Shown here: piece by piece, positions 20,724 through 64,000 of the stretch
Position numbering within the stretch: position 1 is the first letter of the stretch
Layout: each line of letters opens with the position of its first letter
Assembly: GCF_025717065.2 (NCBI RefSeq)
Contig: NZ_JAOVZO020000018.1
Span: forward strand, 992,001-1,056,000
Source: Tahibacter soli
GTDB taxonomy: Bacteria; Pseudomonadota; Gammaproteobacteria; Xanthomonadales; Rhodanobacteraceae
Direction: 5' to 3'
Length of the DNA: 64,000 nucleotides
Translations under genes and position numbers: made by a program
Notes under the pieces: model-generated
What the model was told of the DNA's origin: nothing
Seen by the model: only the letters and a program-made list of their open reading frames with translations
The model's database searches: none

Positions 20724-21077
20724 TGGTGGAGGCGGCGGGAATCGAACCCGCGTCCGAAGGCCCTACGTCCCCGGCTCTACATGCATAGCTCACCGTTCGA
20801 TCTCGTCCTGCGGCAACACGGTGGGCGAAGCGCACCGAAGGACCAGCCCGATTGGAGTTAGCCGACGGCCGTCAGGCGGCAAACGCCAGCGATCTCATGA
20901 TAGTGACGGTACATCCACGAGCATGAGCACAAGTGGGTTCCCGGCTTAGGCCTTAAGCGGCCAGTGCGTAGTTGTCGTCGTTGGCAACTAAAAGTTTGCT
21001 GCTGGATTAACGAGGAAAGCTGCCCCCTCGGCATGCACCAAGTGATTTCGTAGCCCCCGTCGAAGCCGATCGCCCCC
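20724..21077 (-). ncRNA. ssrA: tmRNA (transfer-messenger RNA)
   Basis: 354 nt. The 5' end reads GGGGGCGATCGGCTTCGACG and the 3' end GGTTCGATTCCCGCC then GCCTCCACCA, forming the tRNA-like acceptor and T arm. The tag frame (20985 to 20953) encodes ANDDNYALAA followed by TAA, preceded by the usual A-rich resume region (aaacttttagttgcc). tmRNA, with SmpB, rescues ribosomes stalled on non-stop mRNA. smpB lies 69 bp upstream on the same strand. The 3' end has served as an integration site (see 17543-17603). Confidence 0.97.
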
Positions 21078-51785: not shown

Positions 51786-51997
51786 CATCGTCGCCGTGCG
51801 CCTCGAACGCAGCGTGTTTTGGCCGAAGCGCTGGCGCGCAAGGTCGATCCGGCGTGAGGGTTTTCGTATAACTTGATGGTTTTTATCGTATTGCGAAGAG
51901 GCTTGTCGCGAGAATCGCCGAAAGTTTTATTGTGCACTTGGCGGGCTCGGCGGTTCGTGCTCGAATGCGCGTCACCGCGGACTTTCAGGGGAATCCC

Positions 51998-53788
51998 ATG
52001 CGATTCAAGTCCAGCAAGGTCGACGGTTTTCGAGTTTTCGCGGTTGCCGGCATCAACACCGTCTCGTTCGGTATCGAAGCATCGGACGAGGCCCGCAAGG
52101 GGCTGCTCGGGTTCGCGGTCGAGCGTTTCGACCCGACCGAGGACGAGCGCTACATGATGCCGGGCTTCAAGGTGTTCGCGTCGGTCATACCGAATCCGGA
52201 CGCCTCGACGATCGCCAGCACGCGCGACCATCCCGTGCAGAGTTTTCTGTGGGACGACTTCACGGCGAAGGACGGGCGCGAATACGAGTACAGCTTCTTT
52301 CCGGTGCGCGGCAAGCCGCGCAATCTCGACCACAGCGCGCGGCCTGTGAAGATCACGATACGCACCGAACCGCTGTTCAGCGACTTCGAACACGACGTGT
52401 TCTTCAATCGCGGCGTCGCGAGCAGCCAGGCGTACGCGCGCAAGTTCCAGAACAAGAAACCCGACGCGCTCGTTCCGCCGAAAGACGCGCAGGCCCGCGA
52501 ATGGCTCAGCCGCAAACTCGACGACGCGCTGCTGCGCTTCATCCGGCAGGCGCGCGCGAACGACGGACTGCTGTGCTGCTTCTACGAATTTCGCTACGCG
52601 CCGGCCGCGCAGGCGCTGCGCGAAGCGATCGACCGCGGCGTCGACGTGCGTCTGATCGTCGATGCGAAGAACAACGAAACGACCGACAAAAAGGGCGTGT
52701 TCCACGCGGCGTTTCCGCGCGTCGACAATCTCGATCTGCTCGAAGCGTCCGGCATTCCGCTCGAGCGCGTCGTGCTGCGCACCGCACGCAAGAACGACAT
52801 CCAGCACAACAAGTTCATGGTGCTGCAGAAGGGCAAACGGCGCACGCCGACGCAGGTGTGGACCGGCTCGACGAACCTCTCCGACGGCGGCATCCACGGC
52901 CAGACGAACGTCGGGCACTGGGTGCGCAACGAAGCGGTCGCCGCGAGCTTTGCGGCGTACTGGGACCTCTTGAGCGGCGATCCCGGCGGGCAGGCGGACG
53001 ACACGGCCGCCGACGCGAAACGGAAGAACGCCGAGCTCGCCGCCGCTGTCGCCGACATCAGCCCGACGCCCGACGACATCGACGCGATACCCGAGGGCGT
53101 CACGCCGATCTTCAGTCCGCGCCGCGGCCTGACGATGCTCGACCTGTACGTGAGTCTCATCGCGCAGGCGCAGCGCAGCGGCTGCATCACGCTCGCGTTC
53201 GGCATCAGCAAGGAATTCAAGGAAGCGCTGCGCGAGCACACGCCGCAGAGCCCGATCACGTTCATGATGCTCGAAAAGCGCGACGCGCCGACCGAAAAGA
53301 ACCGCGACGCGTTCGTGTTCATCAACGCGCGGCAGAACGTCTACAAGGCGTGGGGCTCGTACCTGCCCGAAGCGCTGTACCAGTGGACGCGCGAAACGAA
53401 CGCGCGCCTGCTCGGTCTGAACAAGCACGTGAGCTACGTGCATTCGAAGTTCCTGCTGCGCGATCCGCTCGGCGACGATCCGCTCGTCGTCACCGGTTCG
53501 GCGAATTTCAGCGCGGCGTCGACGAACGCGAACGACGAGAACATGCTGCTGATTCGCGGCGACAAACGCGTGGCCGACATTTACTTCACCGAGTTCAACC
53601 GCATCTTCAACCACTACTACTTCCGCTCGGTGACCGAGGCGACGAAGAACGCGCCGAACGCCGCGGCGAATGCCGAGGGCAACCTGTTCCTGTCGGAGAA
53701 GCCCGAGGACTGGCTCGGCAAGTACAAGCCCGGATCGCTCAAGCGCAAGCGCGTGGATCTGTTTACCGGCATGAGCGGCTTCGCGTAG
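51998..53788 (+). CDS. Phospholipase D-like protein with two HKD motifs
   Basis: 596 aa from ATG 51998 (AGGGG 8 nt upstream). N-terminal Ig-like beta domain (about 1-130), then two PLD catalytic modules: first HNKFMVLQKG...WTGSTNLSDG (about 270-295), second HSKFLLRDPL...VVTGSANFSAAS (about 485-510). No signal peptide, so it is probably cytoplasmic or exported by a non-Sec route. It could be a nuclease, phosphodiesterase or phospholipase. Single gene, convergent with the broken beta-helix gene. A defence or effector role is possible but unsupported. Confidence 0.82.
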   Translation: MRFKSSKVDGFRVFAVAGINTVSFGIEASDEARKGLLGFAVERFDPTEDERYMMPGFKVFASVIPNPDASTIASTRDHPVQSFLWDDFTAKDGREYEYSFFPVRGKPRNLDHSARPVKITIRTEPLFSDFEHDVFFNRGVASSQAYARKFQNKKPDALVPPKDAQAREWLSRKLDDALLRFIRQARANDGLLCCFYEFRYAPAAQALREAIDRGVDVRLIVDAKNNETTDKKGVFHAAFPRVDNLDLLEASGIPLERVVLRTARKNDIQHNKFMVLQKGKRRTPTQVWTGSTNLSDGGIHGQTNVGHWVRNEAVAASFAAYWDLLSGDPGGQADDTAADAKRKNAELAAAVADISPTPDDIDAIPEGVTPIFSPRRGLTMLDLYVSLIAQAQRSGCITLAFGISKEFKEALREHTPQSPITFMMLEKRDAPTEKNRDAFVFINARQNVYKAWGSYLPEALYQWTRETNARLLGLNKHVSYVHSKFLLRDPLGDDPLVVTGSANFSAASTNANDENMLLIRGDKRVADIYFTEFNRIFNHYYFRSVTEATKNAPNAAANAEGNLFLSEKPEDWLGKYKPGSLKRKRVDLFTGMSGFA

Positions 53789-54916: not shown

Positions 54917-55050
54917 GATGCGAACTCGCGAGGCGCGCGGCGGCGCCGACGTTGGTGCAATGCGTGTCCGGCGCCGAAAGCGAACGCGGCGAAGGGCGGG
55001 GCGCGGCTTTGCTAGACTGCACCGCTCGAAAGTGCGCAGGCAGGCATGCA

Positions 55051-55650
55051 GTGTCCGAACAATTTTCGCTGGCCGGTTTCGATCGGCCGCCCGAACCGCC
55101 AAAGACGCCCAAGACCGATCGATTGTTCTTCGCGCTAGTACCCGATGCCGACAACGCCGCGCGCATCGCACGCGCGGGAGAGGATCTGCGCCGCACACAC
55201 GGCTTGCGCGGCCGCGTGACCGCGCCGGAGCGGTTGCATACGACGCTGCTGCACCTGGGCGACTACGCCGGCTTTCCCGACGAACTCGCGCGGCGCGCGA
55301 TCGAGGTCGCCGCGACGTTGCCGCCGCTCGCGCCGTTCGACGTGTCGTTCGATCGCATCATGAGCTTCAAGCGGCCGCGCAATCAGCCGTTCGTGCTGCG
55401 CGGCAGCGACGACGTGGCCGGACTCAAGACGCTGCAGCAGGCGCTCGAAACCGCCGCTCGCGCGGCGCGATTGATCTCGAAGAAAGAGAGCTTCACGCCG
55501 CACGTCACGCTGCTGTACGACGACCAGGGCGTCGCCGAGCAGCCGATCGCGCAAAGCGTCGGCTGGCACGCGAACGAGTTCGTGCTCGTGCACAGTCTGC
55601 TCGGGCAGACGAAGCATGTCGTGCTTGAGCGGTTTGCGTTGCGGGGCTGA
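55051..55650 (+). CDS. thpR: RNA 2',3'-cyclic phosphodiesterase (LigT/ThpR)
   Basis: 199 aa from GTG 55051. 2H phosphoesterase fold with both catalytic HxT motifs: ERLHTTLLHLGDYAGFPD and SFTPHVTLLYDD. It hydrolyses 2',3'-cyclic phosphate RNA ends and can reversibly form 2'-5' linkages. Divergent from the beta-helix gene. Confidence 0.92.
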   Translation: MSEQFSLAGFDRPPEPPKTPKTDRLFFALVPDADNAARIARAGEDLRRTHGLRGRVTAPERLHTTLLHLGDYAGFPDELARRAIEVAATLPPLAPFDVSFDRIMSFKRPRNQPFVLRGSDDVAGLKTLQQALETAARAARLISKKESFTPHVTLLYDDQGVAEQPIAQSVGWHANEFVLVHSLLGQTKHVVLERFALRG

Positions 55651-57199: not shown

Positions 57200-58423
57200 T
57201 CACGCGGTCGCCAGATCGCCGGCGAGGACGTCCGCGATCGCTTCTTCCGGCACGCCGATGCGGCAGGTCGCCATGGCCGCCGAGAGTTCGTCGTCCCACG
57301 ATGCGGCGACGGCCGCCCCGCCGAGTTCCGTTCGGCCGCCGGGCAGTCCGCTCAGGGCTTCGCGATAGTCGGCGGCCGTGAATCGCCATGGTCGGGCCGC
57401 GAACGTGCGCATGACGAAATTGCCGATGTGCAAACCCGGCCAGTCGAAATCGCCGTGGTAGAACAGTCGTGCGCCCGCCGCCGCCAGTTGCGCCAGCAGC
57501 ACGCGCTGGGCGGCAGCCGGCATGCCGTCGGTGCACACGAGCGGTGCGCAGCGGTCGCCGAGCCGGTCGGCGGCGATGGCGACAATATTCGGATTTTCAC
57601 AAACGTAAAGATCCACGCCGCGAACGTTCCATCGCGGCGGGGTTCGCACGAGCTCGCGCAGTGCGATGTAGTCGGGGGCTCCGTAGCGCGTGCGCCGGCC
57701 GTCGCCCGAGCGATCGGGCAGCACCGGCAGGTTCAGGAACAGGGCGGGGCGCGCGAGTTCGTTCACGAGTACGCCTGCGCCGGCCCACAGTTCGCGTGAG
57801 CGAACTTCCGCCTCGGGCGGCGCACCATGGCGCAGCCGCAATGCCGCGAGCACGAGCGTCGCGATCGATCGACCGTTGTCCAGCGCATGCGCGTCGCCGA
57901 GCGTTTGCGCCGCGAGCAGCGCCCGCGCCGTTCCGGCTTGTGGCAGCTGCCGCAGCACGCGGTCGGCGTCGTCGCGCAACCGGTCGGCGTATTCGCCGTC
58001 GCCTTGCGCGAGGCGCCTGAGCACCGATCTGCCGTCGGCGCCGGCGAGCAGCGCCGCCAGCAGCGGACTGGCGGGCGCTTCGAAGACGCGGCGCCAGCGA
58101 AGCTCCACGCTCGTCCGGAGCGCCGAGCGCGACACGATCGGTCCGTCGAGCCGTTCGAGCGCGTCGCGCAGCGACGCGGCGATCCCTGTCGCGGCAAGCG
58201 CGGTGTCGACAGCGGCAACGTCGACGTTCAGCGAACGGCGGTACGGCGAAGGCCGACCCGTCAGCGCGGCGAGCGCGGCGTGCTCGGCATCGGACAGATT
58301 GCCGATGCGCAGCGTCGCGGGCATGGCGTCGTCCTCGAATCGCCGCCGCAGGCGCTTGCGCAGTCCGGCCAGGGCGTCGCCGCCGAGCAGTCGCTCCAGA
58401 CGTTCGCTCCCGGCGCCGTTCAC
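57200..58423 (-). CDS. jetD: Wadjet type II nuclease subunit JetD (DUF2399/TIGR02679-like)
   Basis: 407 aa from GTG 58423, overlapping the jetC stop (GTGA). The C-terminal Toprim-like nuclease domain has LYVCENPNIVAIAADRLG (conserved Glu near 275), PLVCTDGMPAAAQRVLL and LFYHGDFDWPGLHIGNFVM (Asp pair near 324), as in TIGR02679. The N-terminal part (ERLLGGDALAGLRKRLRRRF) is the family arm. In Wadjet, JetD cleaves circular DNA extruded by the JetABC SMC motor, eliminating plasmids. Last gene of the operon. Confidence 0.93.
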   Translation of the reverse strand: MNGAGSERLERLLGGDALAGLRKRLRRRFEDDAMPATLRIGNLSDAEHAALAALTGRPSPYRRSLNVDVAAVDTALAATGIAASLRDALERLDGPIVSRSALRTSVELRWRRVFEAPASPLLAALLAGADGRSVLRRLAQGDGEYADRLRDDADRVLRQLPQAGTARALLAAQTLGDAHALDNGRSIATLVLAALRLRHGAPPEAEVRSRELWAGAGVLVNELARPALFLNLPVLPDRSGDGRRTRYGAPDYIALRELVRTPPRWNVRGVDLYVCENPNIVAIAADRLGDRCAPLVCTDGMPAAAQRVLLAQLAAAGARLFYHGDFDWPGLHIGNFVMRTFAARPWRFTAADYREALSGLPGGRTELGGAAVAASWDDELSAAMATCRIGVPEEAIADVLAGDLATA

Positions 58424-61400
58424 GTCGACGGGAAGCGACGGTCGGGATCGGTTTCTCGCCGTCTGGCGCGGCCGTCCCAGGTCCAGCGCGAAACGTAGAT
58501 GGCGTCGATGTCCGGAAGTTTCTGCAATTGGCAGATCGACACGCCCGGCAGCTCCGCGTAGCACGCCCATTCGCGCTCGCTCGTGATGACGAAATCGAGA
58601 TCGAACTCGCGGATCAGTCCCATGCAGTGGGCTCGCGCGGCATCGTCGATTCCGGCGAACGCTTCGTCGAGCAGCATCAGGCGCGGCGCGAGCGCATAGC
58701 TGCCCTGGCCGTAGAAGCTTGCGATCGCGGCGAACAGCGGCACGGTCAGGCCGAGCGCGCGCTCGCCGCTGGAAGCCGGACCGGAGAGCTTGCGCCAGTG
58801 GCCGTCCTGCAGGCGCTCGACGCGAAACCGATGCCAGCGCCGGTAGTCGAGCGCCCGCGCCAGCTGGTCGCTGAGATTGCCGGCTTCGCCCGATACGTCG
58901 GCGTCGGCGCGTTCGCGCTCGGCGGCGATGCGCTGTTGCAGCATCGTGCCGATGGCGCGCTTGTCCTCGGACGTCCACAAGTCGGAGCTGGTGTTGAGCA
59001 GGCGCGCGCGCGCGCGATCGAAGCCGATCGGCGCGCCTTCGGTTTCGGGCAGCGTCTGCCACTGCAGGCGGTAGCGCACGCCGGTCGACGTGGGCCGCTT
59101 TTCGAGCTCCCTGTTGATGGCGTCGACGTGCCTGTCGGCGGCCTGCAGCGACCGCTGCACCTCGATCGCGATTTCGGCCTGCAGATAGTTTTCCAGAACT
59201 TCGCGCTCCTGCTCGGTCAGCAACTGGCCGCGTTGCGCGACCTCGGCGGTCAGCGCGGCGATCAGGCGGTCCGGCCGCTCGGGCTGGTTGCCGTAGACGA
59301 TGTGCACGACCAGGCCCCATTCGTTGATTTCCGTCGTCTCGCGATGTCCGAGCGTCGTCAGCGCGCGCTGCAATTCCTGCAGGTCTTCGCTGACGCCGCG
59401 CTGGATGCGCTCCCAGCTGGCGTCGTCGTCCTTGATGTGCGCGAGCTGCTGCTCGACGCGACGCGCGAAGTTGAGCGCCGGATCGATCGTCCATTCGACC
59501 GCCGGCGGCGGAATGTCGATGTCGGGCAGCGCCGACGGCAGCAGTCCGTTCGCGGCGAATTGGCGCAGTCGAGCGACCGCGTTCGCGCGGGCTGCGACGC
59601 TCGCGGCGAGCGCCGCCTCGGCGCCTCGCGCGACGCCGTCGGCGAAGCCGAAGGCCTCGGTCGCGGTGCGCAGCGTATCTTCCGCGGCTTTCAACGCGCG
59701 TTCGCCGGCCCGAACCGCCTCATTGACGTCGGCGAGACGCTTTTGCAACGTTTCCACTTTGACGCCGACGTTCGCGAGCAGAACGTCGTAGCGCGTTTGC
59801 GCAAGCTGCGATTCGCGCTGCGCCGTCGCTGCCGCGTCGTCAGCCGCCGCGAACTGCTCGGCTGCTTCGTGGCGACGCGCCTGCTGGCGCCGCAATCCCG
59901 GTATCAGCCGCCGCCATTCGCGGACGGCGAGCACGAGCGTGCCTTGTATCTTGGTCAATGCGGCAAGCGAACCGTCGATCGCCGTCAGTGCGGGGGCTGC
60001 CGCCGGCAACCGCAGATCCCGGGCGTCGCGCTCCAGCGAACCGTGCGCCGCGTGCAGCGTCTGCTCGGCGTTCCTCCAGCGATCTTCGGCGAGCGCGAAC
60101 TGAGTCCGGGCCTCGCGAAAGGTTGCGGACGCCGCCGCCGCCGAGAGACGCGCGGCGTGCAGCGCGTCGTCGCTCGGCGCGCCGCGCCACTCCTCGTCGG
60201 CGAGCCCGCGGGCCGCTTCCAGCGCGTCGCGTCGACGGCGTGCAATCTCGAGATCCTGCGCCAATGCATCCAGGCGTGCGTCGATGTCGACGATGCGCCG
60301 CAGACGCGCCTGTTCGCGCGCGGCGTAACCGATGTACTGCGCCTGCGCCTTGATCCACGAGCCCGACAGCGGGCCGATGCGATATCGGCCGGACGGCGAA
60401 ACCCAGGCCTCGGCTTCGACCGGATCGTTTGCCGCGACCGCGATGCCGGCCAGCAGGCGCTCGATGAGGGCCGGCGCGATGCCGCCGCCGTCGGGTATCG
60501 CCGGCTGCAGCCAGTCCGCGAGGCTGCCGCCCGCGATCGGCGTACGTGCGAGCAGTTGGACGTCATGCCACGGTTCGGCCGCGTCGGCGCCGAGAATCCG
60601 GCCGTCGGGCGTGACCCAGGCATCGAGCAGCCCGGCGCCTTCGAGCGCGCCCTCCAGGCCCGCTTTCGCGCGAGCGTCGACTGTCGGACGAAAATCGACC
60701 AATTTCCACAATGGCATGCCGGCGGCGCGCAGTCTCGCCGCGGCGTCGCGGGCGGGCGGCGCGGGCGGATGCAGGTCGCTGCCGGCGTTCAGCCGCTGCC
60801 GTTCGGCCGAGAGCGCCGATCGCTCGTCGTGCACGGCGCGCTCGATCGCGTCGAGTTCGGCTTCCTGGACCGCATGGCGCTTGCCGGCCGCGAGCAGCGC
60901 TTCGCGCAGCGCGATGCGAGCCGGATTGTCTGCGGTCGGATTGCGGGTCCATTCGGCCAATGCGTCGGCCTGGGCGCCGACGTCGACGCGCAGCTCGATC
61001 ACACGTTCGTGGAACGCGGCCCAGGCTTCGATCAGGGCGTCGCACGCGCGTTCGAAGGCGGCATCGGCGTCGCGGCGCCGTTCGGCGGTATCGTCCAGCA
61101 CGGCACGCTTTTCGTCGTACGACTGTCGCTGCAGCAGCAGCGCGTCGCGGGCCTGATCGACTTCGCGATGTCGCCTGCGCAACGTTTCGACATCGCCCTG
61201 CCGGTCGGCGACCAGGGACAGCAGCTCGGTCTGCGCGGCGTCGATATCCGCCGGGGCGAGGTCGACGAGTTCGAGCGGCGCAAGCGCGACCAGCGGGTGC
61301 GTCGCCCAACCGGTGCTGATTTCCGCCGCGCCGGCATGCACGGCGCCTTCGCTGCGGGCGCCCGCCAGGCGGGTCTGCGTTTCGACGGCCTCTTGCGTCG

Positions 61401-62577
61401 CGCGCGCGGTTTCGGCGACTTCGTCGTCCCTGCGCCGCGCCGCGGCCTCGCGCCTTCGCGTCGCCGCCTCCGCTTCGCGCTGCCATTTGGCAGCGTTCTC
61501 CTTTTCGTCGTCGAGGCGTTTCGCGTCGGTCATCGCCGGATCGGACAGCAACGCGTGCTGCTCGTCGCGCAGGTGGATCACGCGCGCCTCGGCCGCCTCG
61601 CGCGCGTCGGTCGCCGCGTCTTTCGCGTCTTGCGTCGACGACCGGTGCGCCTGCGCCTCGGCGCGCTGGCGGCTGGCGTTGTCGAAGGTCGTCTGCGCCT
61701 GGCGCAGTTCGCGTACCTGGCGCCGCGTCAGCGTCCCCGCGTAGATGCGATAGCGCTCGTCGAACCGGCCGACGGCTTTGGCCAGCTGCTTGAGTTCGTC
61801 GAGTTCGCGGCGTTCTTCCTCGAGATGGTTGAGTGCTTCGGCGACGTCGCCGAGCAGGCGCTGCTCCATCGGCGGCAGCGCTTCGCTGAGCGCGTTCGAC
61901 AGGCCCGTTTCGTCGGGCTTTTTCGACAGCTGCGGCTGACGCAGCTGGATCAGCGTGTCCATCAGCGCGCCGTAGCGTTTGCCGAGCCGGAACAATCGCT
62001 CGTCGACGGCGCGCCGGTAGGCCTCGGCTTTGTCGAATACCTGTCCCCGGCCCTCGATCGCCTCGCGCAGCCGCTCGCGCGTCAGCACGCTGCGCTGCGA
62101 CGTCAGCAGCCAGAAGTCTTCGCCGATGCGCGCCGCCGGTTCGCCGTCGAGGATAAAAAACCAGCTGTCCACATGGGGACGCGCCGCCGCCGCGGACAGG
62201 CCGGCTCCGAGCGTCATGAAATGCGTGGTGCCGTCTTCGTCGCGCCGCCCGAACTCGATCCACGCGTAGCCGATGCGGCGATCGTAGGTGCCGAGCAGGA
62301 GATTCCACGCCATGCGCTTGCCGGCGTCGCCGTCGGGTTCGATGCGCGAGGGACGCAGATTGGCGTCGAGCAGGAACGGCAACGTCAGCGACAGGACCTT
62401 GGACTTGCCGGTGCCGTTGTTGCCGCGCAGCAGCAGGCGTCCCTCGTGAAACCAGAATTCCTCGCTGTCGTAGCGAAACAGCTCCACCAGACCGATCCGC
62501 AGCGGCTGCCAGCGCGCGGTCGACGGTTGCGGCAGTCGGGGAGGGCGCAGCGCGCCGCTCGCAGGTGTCTGCATCAT
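58420..62577 (-). CDS. jetC: Wadjet type II SMC-like ATPase JetC (TIGR02680-like)
   Basis: 1385 aa. Start ATG overlaps the jetB stop (ATGA). N-terminal head: LRIGLVELFRYDSEEFWFHE and Walker A LLRGNNGTGKSKVLSLTLP (about 45-60). Very long coiled coils rich in Arg/Glu/Ala (about 230-1150) surround a hinge-like region near the middle (GALEGAGLLDAWVTPDGRIL). C-terminal head: signature SSGERALGLTVPLF and Walker B RLMLLDEAFAGIDD, D-loop. It loop-extrudes DNA and senses small circular molecules. A full-length antisense frame is a shadow. Confidence 0.95.
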   Translation of the reverse strand: MMQTPASGALRPPRLPQPSTARWQPLRIGLVELFRYDSEEFWFHEGRLLLRGNNGTGKSKVLSLTLPFLLDANLRPSRIEPDGDAGKRMAWNLLLGTYDRRIGYAWIEFGRRDEDGTTHFMTLGAGLSAAAARPHVDSWFFILDGEPAARIGEDFWLLTSQRSVLTRERLREAIEGRGQVFDKAEAYRRAVDERLFRLGKRYGALMDTLIQLRQPQLSKKPDETGLSNALSEALPPMEQRLLGDVAEALNHLEEERRELDELKQLAKAVGRFDERYRIYAGTLTRRQVRELRQAQTTFDNASRQRAEAQAHRSSTQDAKDAATDAREAAEARVIHLRDEQHALLSDPAMTDAKRLDDEKENAAKWQREAEAATRRREAAARRRDDEVAETARATQEAVETQTRLAGARSEGAVHAGAAEISTGWATHPLVALAPLELVDLAPADIDAAQTELLSLVADRQGDVETLRRRHREVDQARDALLLQRQSYDEKRAVLDDTAERRRDADAAFERACDALIEAWAAFHERVIELRVDVGAQADALAEWTRNPTADNPARIALREALLAAGKRHAVQEAELDAIERAVHDERSALSAERQRLNAGSDLHPPAPPARDAAARLRAAGMPLWKLVDFRPTVDARAKAGLEGALEGAGLLDAWVTPDGRILGADAAEPWHDVQLLARTPIAGGSLADWLQPAIPDGGGIAPALIERLLAGIAVAANDPVEAEAWVSPSGRYRIGPLSGSWIKAQAQYIGYAAREQARLRRIVDIDARLDALAQDLEIARRRRDALEAARGLADEEWRGAPSDDALHAARLSAAAASATFREARTQFALAEDRWRNAEQTLHAAHGSLERDARDLRLPAAAPALTAIDGSLAALTKIQGTLVLAVREWRRLIPGLRRQQARRHEAAEQFAAADDAAATAQRESQLAQTRYDVLLANVGVKVETLQKRLADVNEAVRAGERALKAAEDTLRTATEAFGFADGVARGAEAALAASVAARANAVARLRQFAANGLLPSALPDIDIPPPAVEWTIDPALNFARRVEQQLAHIKDDDASWERIQRGVSEDLQELQRALTTLGHRETTEINEWGLVVHIVYGNQPERPDRLIAALTAEVAQRGQLLTEQEREVLENYLQAEIAIEVQRSLQAADRHVDAINRELEKRPTSTGVRYRLQWQTLPETEGAPIGFDRARARLLNTSSDLWTSEDKRAIGTMLQQRIAAERERADADVSGEAGNLSDQLARALDYRRWHRFRVERLQDGHWRKLSGPASSGERALGLTVPLFAAIASFYGQGSYALAPRLMLLDEAFAGIDDAARAHCMGLIREFDLDFVITSEREWACYAELPGVSICQLQKLPDIDAIYVSRWTWDGRARRRETDPDRRFPST

Positions 62578-63818
62578 GCGTCCGCCTCGATGCCCGGCGC
62601 CAGCTGCCGCGCGACGATTTCCGTCCCCAGCGCAAAGCGCGCCAGCGCGGGCCGCGCGCGTATCGTCGATCCGTCGCGCCGGACCAGGTTCAGTTTTTCC
62701 AGACGATCGATCGCGATGCCCGCCAGTTCGTGTTCGGCGCCGGGTTCGCGCGCGGACTTGCGCCAATAGCGGCCGTAGCGTTCCTTCGCGTCGCCCAGGA
62801 CCGCCGCGATCGTCGACGCGCCGATCGCGAACGGCCCCGGCTCGCGGCGCAGATGGTCGGCGAGATATTCGGCGACCAGCAGCGTCGCGTGCGCCTCCGT
62901 GCCTTCGGCCGGCATCGCGACGTCGGTCAGCGCGCCGGTTTCGTCGACGAGCGCCAGTCCTTCGGCACGCTGTTCGGCGACGAGTCCGGCGGCGTCGCAC
63001 AATCGCGTCGCCATCACGCCGCGCTGGTTCGCGAAATAGGCGCGGGCTTCGTCGTCGAGCGAATCGAAGTAGACGACGGGATCGTCGAGCAGGCGACGCG
63101 CGAGCCGGTGCCGCATCGCGGTACGACGGCCGTCTTCGCTGTCGGCCACGTATTCCGACACGAGCGCATGCAGCCGCTCGTCGAGCGTGTGCGGCATCTG
63201 GCTCTCCGGCCAGCTGGACGGCCCTCTGACCGCGGCGAGCATGCCGGCCAACGCATGGCGGTGCACGTCGTACAGCGCATCCGCCTGTGCGCCCGCGCCG
63301 TGAATGAAGCTTTCCTCGTCGCCGACGACCCGGCGCAGGACGCCGAGATCTAGTAGCGTTTTGCAGATGTGGACAAGGTCGCGGCGTTCGGACGGCGAGC
63401 GCAGATGGAACGCGAACCCGCGCTCGGCGAGCGCGGGTTCCGCCGCCAGCGACAGCAGGCGATCGCCGAGCGTCTGCAGCGTTATCTGCGGTTCGGCACG
63501 ATCGAGCGCGGCGCAGGCGAGGCAGAGCAGGACATAGCGGTTGCGTTCATAGTCGGGCAGACCGCGGGTCGCGTCGTCAAGGTCGGCCGGACGCTTGTAC
63601 AGGCGCGCGCCTTGCCGATCGACATGCAGCGCCCAGCCGGTTTCACGCGCGAACCAGTCGCGCAGACGGTCAGCCTGGCGGCGCACGGAAGCGAAGTCTT
63701 CGTGCTGCGGGCCGAGCAGCGGCTGCATCAGCAGCGCTCGAACGGCGCGACGGAATTCGTCGCGCGCGAAAGCGCTCTGCGCCTCGGCCACCGCGTGACG
63801 GCGCGCGCGGACGTTCAC
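62574..63818 (-). CDS. jetB: Wadjet type II subunit JetB (DUF2398/TIGR02678-like)
   Basis: 414 aa from GTG 63818, overlapping the jetA stop (GTGA). Matches the TIGR02678 pattern: RRAVRALLMQPLLGPQHEDF at the N-terminus, winged-helix regions (LVHICKTLLDLGVLRRVVGD), RLARRLLDDPVVYFDSLDDE and YFANQRG, and a C-terminal LEKLNLVRRDGSTIRARPAL. It is the KITE-type (MukE-like) subunit that binds the kleisin JetA and the SMC. Domain roles from the family, not shown here. Confidence 0.92.
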   Translation of the reverse strand: MNVRARRHAVAEAQSAFARDEFRRAVRALLMQPLLGPQHEDFASVRRQADRLRDWFARETGWALHVDRQGARLYKRPADLDDATRGLPDYERNRYVLLCLACAALDRAEPQITLQTLGDRLLSLAAEPALAERGFAFHLRSPSERRDLVHICKTLLDLGVLRRVVGDEESFIHGAGAQADALYDVHRHALAGMLAAVRGPSSWPESQMPHTLDERLHALVSEYVADSEDGRRTAMRHRLARRLLDDPVVYFDSLDDEARAYFANQRGVMATRLCDAAGLVAEQRAEGLALVDETGALTDVAMPAEGTEAHATLLVAEYLADHLRREPGPFAIGASTIAAVLGDAKERYGRYWRKSAREPGAEHELAGIAIDRLEKLNLVRRDGSTIRARPALARFALGTEIVARQLAPGIEADA

Positions 63819-64000
63819 GCCGCCTCCGTCGCTGCCTGCGAGACCGGCGTGATCGTGACGAGATGGTCGCGGCCGGACAACGTGCCGAGCGGCGTTTCGA
63901 TGCTGGCCCTGCTGTCGGGGCCGAGCGGTTCCAGGCGCACGACCAGCAGTCCGTCGCCGGTGCGGCGCTCGATCGTCGCATCCGGCGAAGCCTGCTCCGA
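63815..64000 (-). CDS. jetA: Wadjet type II kleisin JetA, C-terminal end only (cut by window)
   Basis: The last 61 codons of a minus-strand gene whose start lies beyond the window: DATIERRTGDGLLVVRLEPL, LGTLSGRDHLVTITPVSQ, ending TEAA. The position upstream of jetB, the GTGA overlap, and the small beta-rich C-terminal end fit TIGR02677/DUF2397. Too short to confirm alone. Confidence 0.75.
   Translation of the reverse strand, partial: SEQASPDATIERRTGDGLLVVRLEPLGPDSRASIETPLGTLSGRDHLVTITPVSQAATEAA

Follow-up and report, generated by a model that had tools for sequence, protein, structure and literature searches.

RESULTS

The window, by which we mean the whole 64,000-base stretch analysed here, corresponds to C18:992001-1056000 of the Tahibacter soli genome (6.65 Mb in 23 contigs). 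At its right end, over positions 57200-64000 and just past the edge, lie four minus-strand genes, jetA-jetB-jetC-jetD, whose products point to a complete Wadjet type II operon (Table 1). A sequence-only reading of the window had placed four minus-strand genes here in the order DUF2397, DUF2398, SMC and DUF2399, and the genes are present as claimed. Its description of jetA as partial holds for the window, which contains only the 3' part of the gene (63815..64000), but not for the contig, which carries the entire gene with no internal stop. Because the extended locus, L002, starts with the same 11,000 bases that close the window, jetA is cut by the window edge alone, the gene itself being whole, and its reading frame runs unbroken upstream of position 64000. 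All four frames are open, and stop and start overlap by 4 bases at each of the three jet junctions; these overlaps, together with profile matches, were used to choose the start codons.

Table 1. Genes of the jetABCD operon and the JetC hinge region, in window numbering
Feature	Coordinates	Strand	Description
jetD	57200..58423	-	GTG start, 407 amino acids, Toprim-type nuclease subunit (DUF3323 + DUF2399, predicted); 4-base overlap with jetC stop
jetC	58420..62577	-	ATG start, 1385 amino acids, SMC-type ATPase: Walker A, signature motif, Walker B, type II hinge
JetC hinge region, residues 575-790	60208..60855	-	Homologue of the type II JetC hinge seen in a solved structure
jetB	62574..63818	-	GTG start, 414 amino acids, KITE-type subunit (DUF2398); 4-base overlap with jetA stop
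jetA	63815..65353 (L002 10815-12353)	-	ATG start, 512 amino acids, kleisin-type subunit (DUF2397)

Comparison with curated family models supported the type II identity that the sequence-only reading had proposed. JetA scored 552.9 bits against TIGR02677 (curated cut-off 165.85), JetB 390.6 bits against TIGR02678 (124.65), JetC 1313.8 bits against TIGR02680 (462.85), covering model positions 1-1356 of 1356, and JetD 395.9 bits against TIGR02679 (196). Chance is excluded as an explanation of the four matches, because every Jet protein lies far above its cut-off, by a factor of 2.0 to 3.3, with expect values (E) of at most 7.6e-117. In a control scan of 14 well-known genomes, TIGR02680 was matched in one, below its cut-off, and TIGR02677 in none. 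The Pfam assignments agreed, with PF09660 (DUF2397) in JetA at 471.4 bits, PF09661 (DUF2398) in JetB at 332.5 bits, SbcC_Walker_B in JetC, and PF11796 (141.3 bits) together with PF09664 (172.2 bits), that is, DUF3323 with DUF2399, in JetD. The defence-system finder PADLOC likewise returned the type 2 models at the top for all four proteins (JetA2, 641.5 bits; JetB2, 456.2 bits; JetC2, 1406.5 bits; JetD2, 423.9 bits). Each of JetA, JetB, JetC and JetD belongs to its Wadjet type II family, and the genes stand in the order A-B-C-D. We therefore hold it very probable that these genes make up an entire Wadjet type II operon, jetABCD, a judgement that concerns its identity and the way this kind of system works, as distinct from its activity in the host.

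The organization of the operon is the usual one among its relatives. A scan of genome contigs yielded 171 pattern matches, 151 of them encoding a JetC relative, and the best 80 were kept; L139, which comes from the same genome as the Rhodanobacter locus L127, was left out. All four genes are complete and in the order A-B-C-D in 74 of these 80 distinct loci (75 of 81 when L139 is counted). Four of the six others (L053, L061, L062 and L098) are truncated where the examined sequence begins, L079 lacks a JetA match in its 992 bases ahead of jetB, and L117 completes the set. In L117 (Massilia brevitalea, 1769-2928), jetB is split into two parts that occupy different frames, so this copy is probably defective or wrongly assembled. 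A 4-base overlap is more frequent than any other junction, occurring between jetA and jetB in 45, between jetB and jetC in 49, and between jetC and jetD in 52 of the 74 complete loci. Extra DNA was seen inside the operon in L079 (about 1.7 kb between jetC and jetD), L105 (1.0 kb between jetB and jetC) and L108 (0.8 kb between jetA and jetB). The phage collection contained no JetC relative; 20 plasmid records matched, and JetC coverage of at least 80% was reached in one only, a replicon of Cupriavidus taiwanensis (578 kb; 40.6% identity).

The claim that the key motifs are intact was borne out by the presence of LLRGNNGTGKS, LSGPASSGERALGL and LMLLDEAFAGID in JetC and of CENP and HGDFDW in JetD. 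In an alignment of 81 rows (the window's own copy and the 80 relatives), JetC G52, G55, K58, S59, G1271, D1304, E1305 and T1332 were invariant, K58 and S59 belonging to Walker A and D1304 and E1305 to Walker B. JetC residues S1265 (S in 77 rows, A in 3, I in 1), Q211 (Q in 80, R in 1) and G57 (G in 80, S in 1) varied slightly, and the window's protein carries the commonest residue at all three. JetD E276, H323, D325, D327 and W328 were also invariant in all 81 rows; E276, D325 and D327 are presumably the catalytic Toprim set. The Toprim fold of JetD is predicted from family models and published work. The intact frames and the retained catalytic residues argue for selection on function, and the earlier expectation that the system is probably functional is a reasonable one from the same motifs and frames. 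Antisense to jetC, on the plus strand at 58528-62769, runs an open frame of 1413 amino acids whose codon guanine-cytosine (GC) pattern mirrors that of jetC, and for which high GC is the most plausible cause.

Among solved structures, JetC matched the JetC chain of PDB entries 9qe0 and 9qe1 over nearly its full length, including the hinge (259.2 bits), and JetA matched the JetA chain of the same entries (98.5 bits). JetB matched 9qe0 JetB by profile only (35.8 bits, E 3.5e-8), the single-sequence search finding none. The hinge profile A3, built from 39 hinge regions, matched residues 559-763 of 9qe0 JetC at 75.4 bits (E 4.3e-20). The chain names and reference 30 of PMC12647877 lead us to infer that 9qe0 is nvJET, the type II complex of Neobacillus vireti. 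The complex encoded here thus has JetA, JetB and JetC, hinge included, in common with nvJET, from which it is very diverged.

The distribution of the system was surveyed with TIGR02680 in 61 genomes, comprising the window's own genome, seven others of the genus, and the rest from the family and order. Matches at E up to 0.001 occurred in nine genomes and exceeded the cut-off in two, the window's genome and G024; the seven weaker matches reached at most 37.6 bits and covered a small part of the model. None of the seven genus-mates, one of whose genomes is only 87% complete, passed the cut-off, and among the 21 genomes around G024 the system was present in G024 alone. The 4,104-base jetC stretch of G024 is identical to that of Rhodanobacter sp. 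FW104-R8 (L127), which places this carrier in the same family, Rhodanobacteraceae. In a first tree, built from concatenated JetABCD sequences (75 rows, 2698 columns), the window's copy stood apart from those of Rhodanobacter (L127) and Fulvimonas (L112), and an approximately unbiased (AU) test on a 46-row tree rejected the three as one clade (p-AU 6.97e-07); the 46 rows were hand-picked from the 75, the clade was defined with the first tree already in view, and the search, under LG+G4, was a short one. Because the tree rejects this grouping with the two other family carriers, a separate gain by horizontal transfer, distinct from that of the L127 and L112 carriers, is likely. The exact place of the window's copy is poorly supported: its sister in the 75-row tree is L080 (support 0.826), its nearest relative by distance is L109, and none of the starred sets of the 46-row tree includes it. 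The GC content of the operon (0.70) falls between those of its tadA side (0.72) and its aldo/keto reductase side (0.66), giving no compositional sign of a recent arrival.

The operon is flanked upstream by a divergent tadA, 178 bases from jetA, and downstream by a same-strand aldo/keto reductase gene, 115 bases from jetD. ARAGORN found no transfer RNA (tRNA) gene in L002 or L003 (35 kb starting at window position 53001), its sole call in the window being a transfer-messenger RNA at 20724-21077. Pfam scans of 12 neighbouring frames, three of them without any family match, identified no integrase or transposase. Since no tRNA, integrase or transposase was seen nearby, the operon is not visibly part of a mobile element. 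The aldo/keto reductase has a match at 64-65% identity in four genus-mates; tadA lies on another contig in all four, and in three of them neither 20 kb stretch, around the one gene or the other, contains the other gene. This separation of the two flanking genes means that a clean empty site is not definable. In two genus-mates, tadA is preceded by a spermidine-synthase-like gene (read by eye), whose best counterpart in the window's genome lies on contig C11, at 57% identity; the tadA neighbourhood (L002 12532-12999; contig C11) appears to be rearranged in the window's genome.

Two further plus-strand genes lie close by. The frame at window 51932-53788 encodes 618 amino acids with two phospholipase-D-like stretches (PF13091, 76 bits) and gave weak matches to the DrmC/ZacB defence models, the best at 33.1 bits; its product is probably a general phospholipase-D-like enzyme. 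The frame at window 54952-55650, near the operon, encodes a 2'-5' RNA ligase or LigT-like phosphoesterase (50.8 bits) and matched no defence model.

DISCUSSION

Wadjet type II is a widespread and already characterised system, and the operon described here has all four of its genes, their order, their domain content and their catalytic motifs. It differs in no family-defining feature, only in a diverged sequence, the top JetC identity among the best 80 of 151 relatives being 59% (L109). With Wadjet type I, represented by ecJET of Escherichia coli and MksBEFG of Corynebacterium glutamicum, it would share the four-subunit plan and the presumed mechanism (PMC10586767); it differs in the family models that it matches and in the hinge, which is channelled in type I and here is homologous to the 9qe0 hinge. 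None of the literature matches listed for Wadjet, Jet, the TIGR names or Tahibacter was about this locus, judging by title and the start of the abstract.

The published work on relatives provides a plausible account of what such an operon would do. In PMC10586767, JetABC is described as a dimeric SMC complex that is proposed to extrude DNA loops and so to sense small circular DNA, with JetD cutting when extrusion is completed. By analogy, the most likely role of JetA (kleisin), JetB (KITE) and JetC (SMC ATPase) is to form together a motor that extrudes DNA loops, and the Toprim nuclease JetD would cut the DNA once the motors have reeled in a full circle and collide. The expected outcome is the destruction of small and medium circular plasmids, with linear DNA and the chromosome spared. 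Loop extrusion, circle sensing, cleavage and plasmid restriction are all attributed to this operon on the strength of its published relatives.

The hinge is where the type II complexes may depart from type I in behaviour. According to PMC12647877, nvJET, which has a hinge without a channel, cleaves naked circular DNA and cannot pass obstacles, whereas the type I JetC hinge contains a charged channel that lets obstacles through. Because the hinge encoded here is homologous to that of 9qe0 JetC, this complex would be expected to behave like nvJET toward obstacles. A speculative extension, in which we place little confidence, is that the type II class as a whole senses a narrower set of circles than type I, namely those free of large bound complexes, by way of the channel-less nvJET-type hinge; the present locus would then offer a gammaproteobacterial test case.

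Several observations weigh against reading the locus as an active type II plasmid defence. JetD had no match among solved structures by either single sequence or profile, a result to be read knowing that 9qe0 may hold no JetD chain. Nothing on the activity or expression of this copy was found in the material searched. A search of L002 3000-13100 gave no sigma-70-like promoter against 0.4 expected, a count of little weight in a GC-rich genome. The plasmid markers PF03432 (relaxase) and PF01051 (replication protein), which were matched in one and two of the 14 control genomes, respectively, were absent from all eight genomes of the genus, the window's own and the seven genus-mates that lack the system; since they are missing from the latter as well, the comparison is uninformative and lends no support to plasmid exclusion. 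Finally, deletion of a type III Wadjet in Cupriavidus necator left electroporation and plasmid stability unchanged (PMC12645576).

The C. necator result and the missing promoter-like site would fit a true Wadjet type II set whose copy is silent, or has no plasmid effect in its host, under ordinary conditions. Such a state is compatible with the identification and competes with its activity only, and we consider it unlikely, because the four frames are open with all catalytic residues kept, and because deletion of jetABCD, of whichever Wadjet type, in Clostridium cellulovorans raised conjugation by about five orders of magnitude in the native host (PMC12287153). A role in organising or segregating the host chromosome in the manner of MksBEF, instead of in defence, has a precedent in that JetABC is itself an SMC complex and that in Pseudomonas aeruginosa the chromosome is organised by MksBEF, from which JetD is believed to have been lost (PMC10586767); we judge it very improbable here, where the same operon encodes a nuclease subunit with intact E and DxD and where the system, unlike a housekeeping SMC, is absent from all seven genus-mates and patchy in the family. 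A misreading as type II of some other SMC-based system, whether Lamassu or Wadjet type I or III, is so improbable as to be negligible, since JetC, alone of the four proteins, touches the type 1 JetC1 models of PADLOC only at 39.1 and 18.8 bits against 1406.5 bits for JetC2, and JetA, JetB and JetD had, at E up to 0.001, matches to type 2 Jet models alone.

Read as a Wadjet type II operon, the copy is in good order and an ordinary member of its kind, and it leaves the general picture of these systems unchanged. With it, a genus whose seven other genomes each lack a TIGR02680 match above the cut-off gains one intact type II Wadjet. If active, the operon would be a practical obstacle to the introduction of plasmids into this strain, and a divergent type II system against which the hinge and nuclease mechanisms of type I could be compared.

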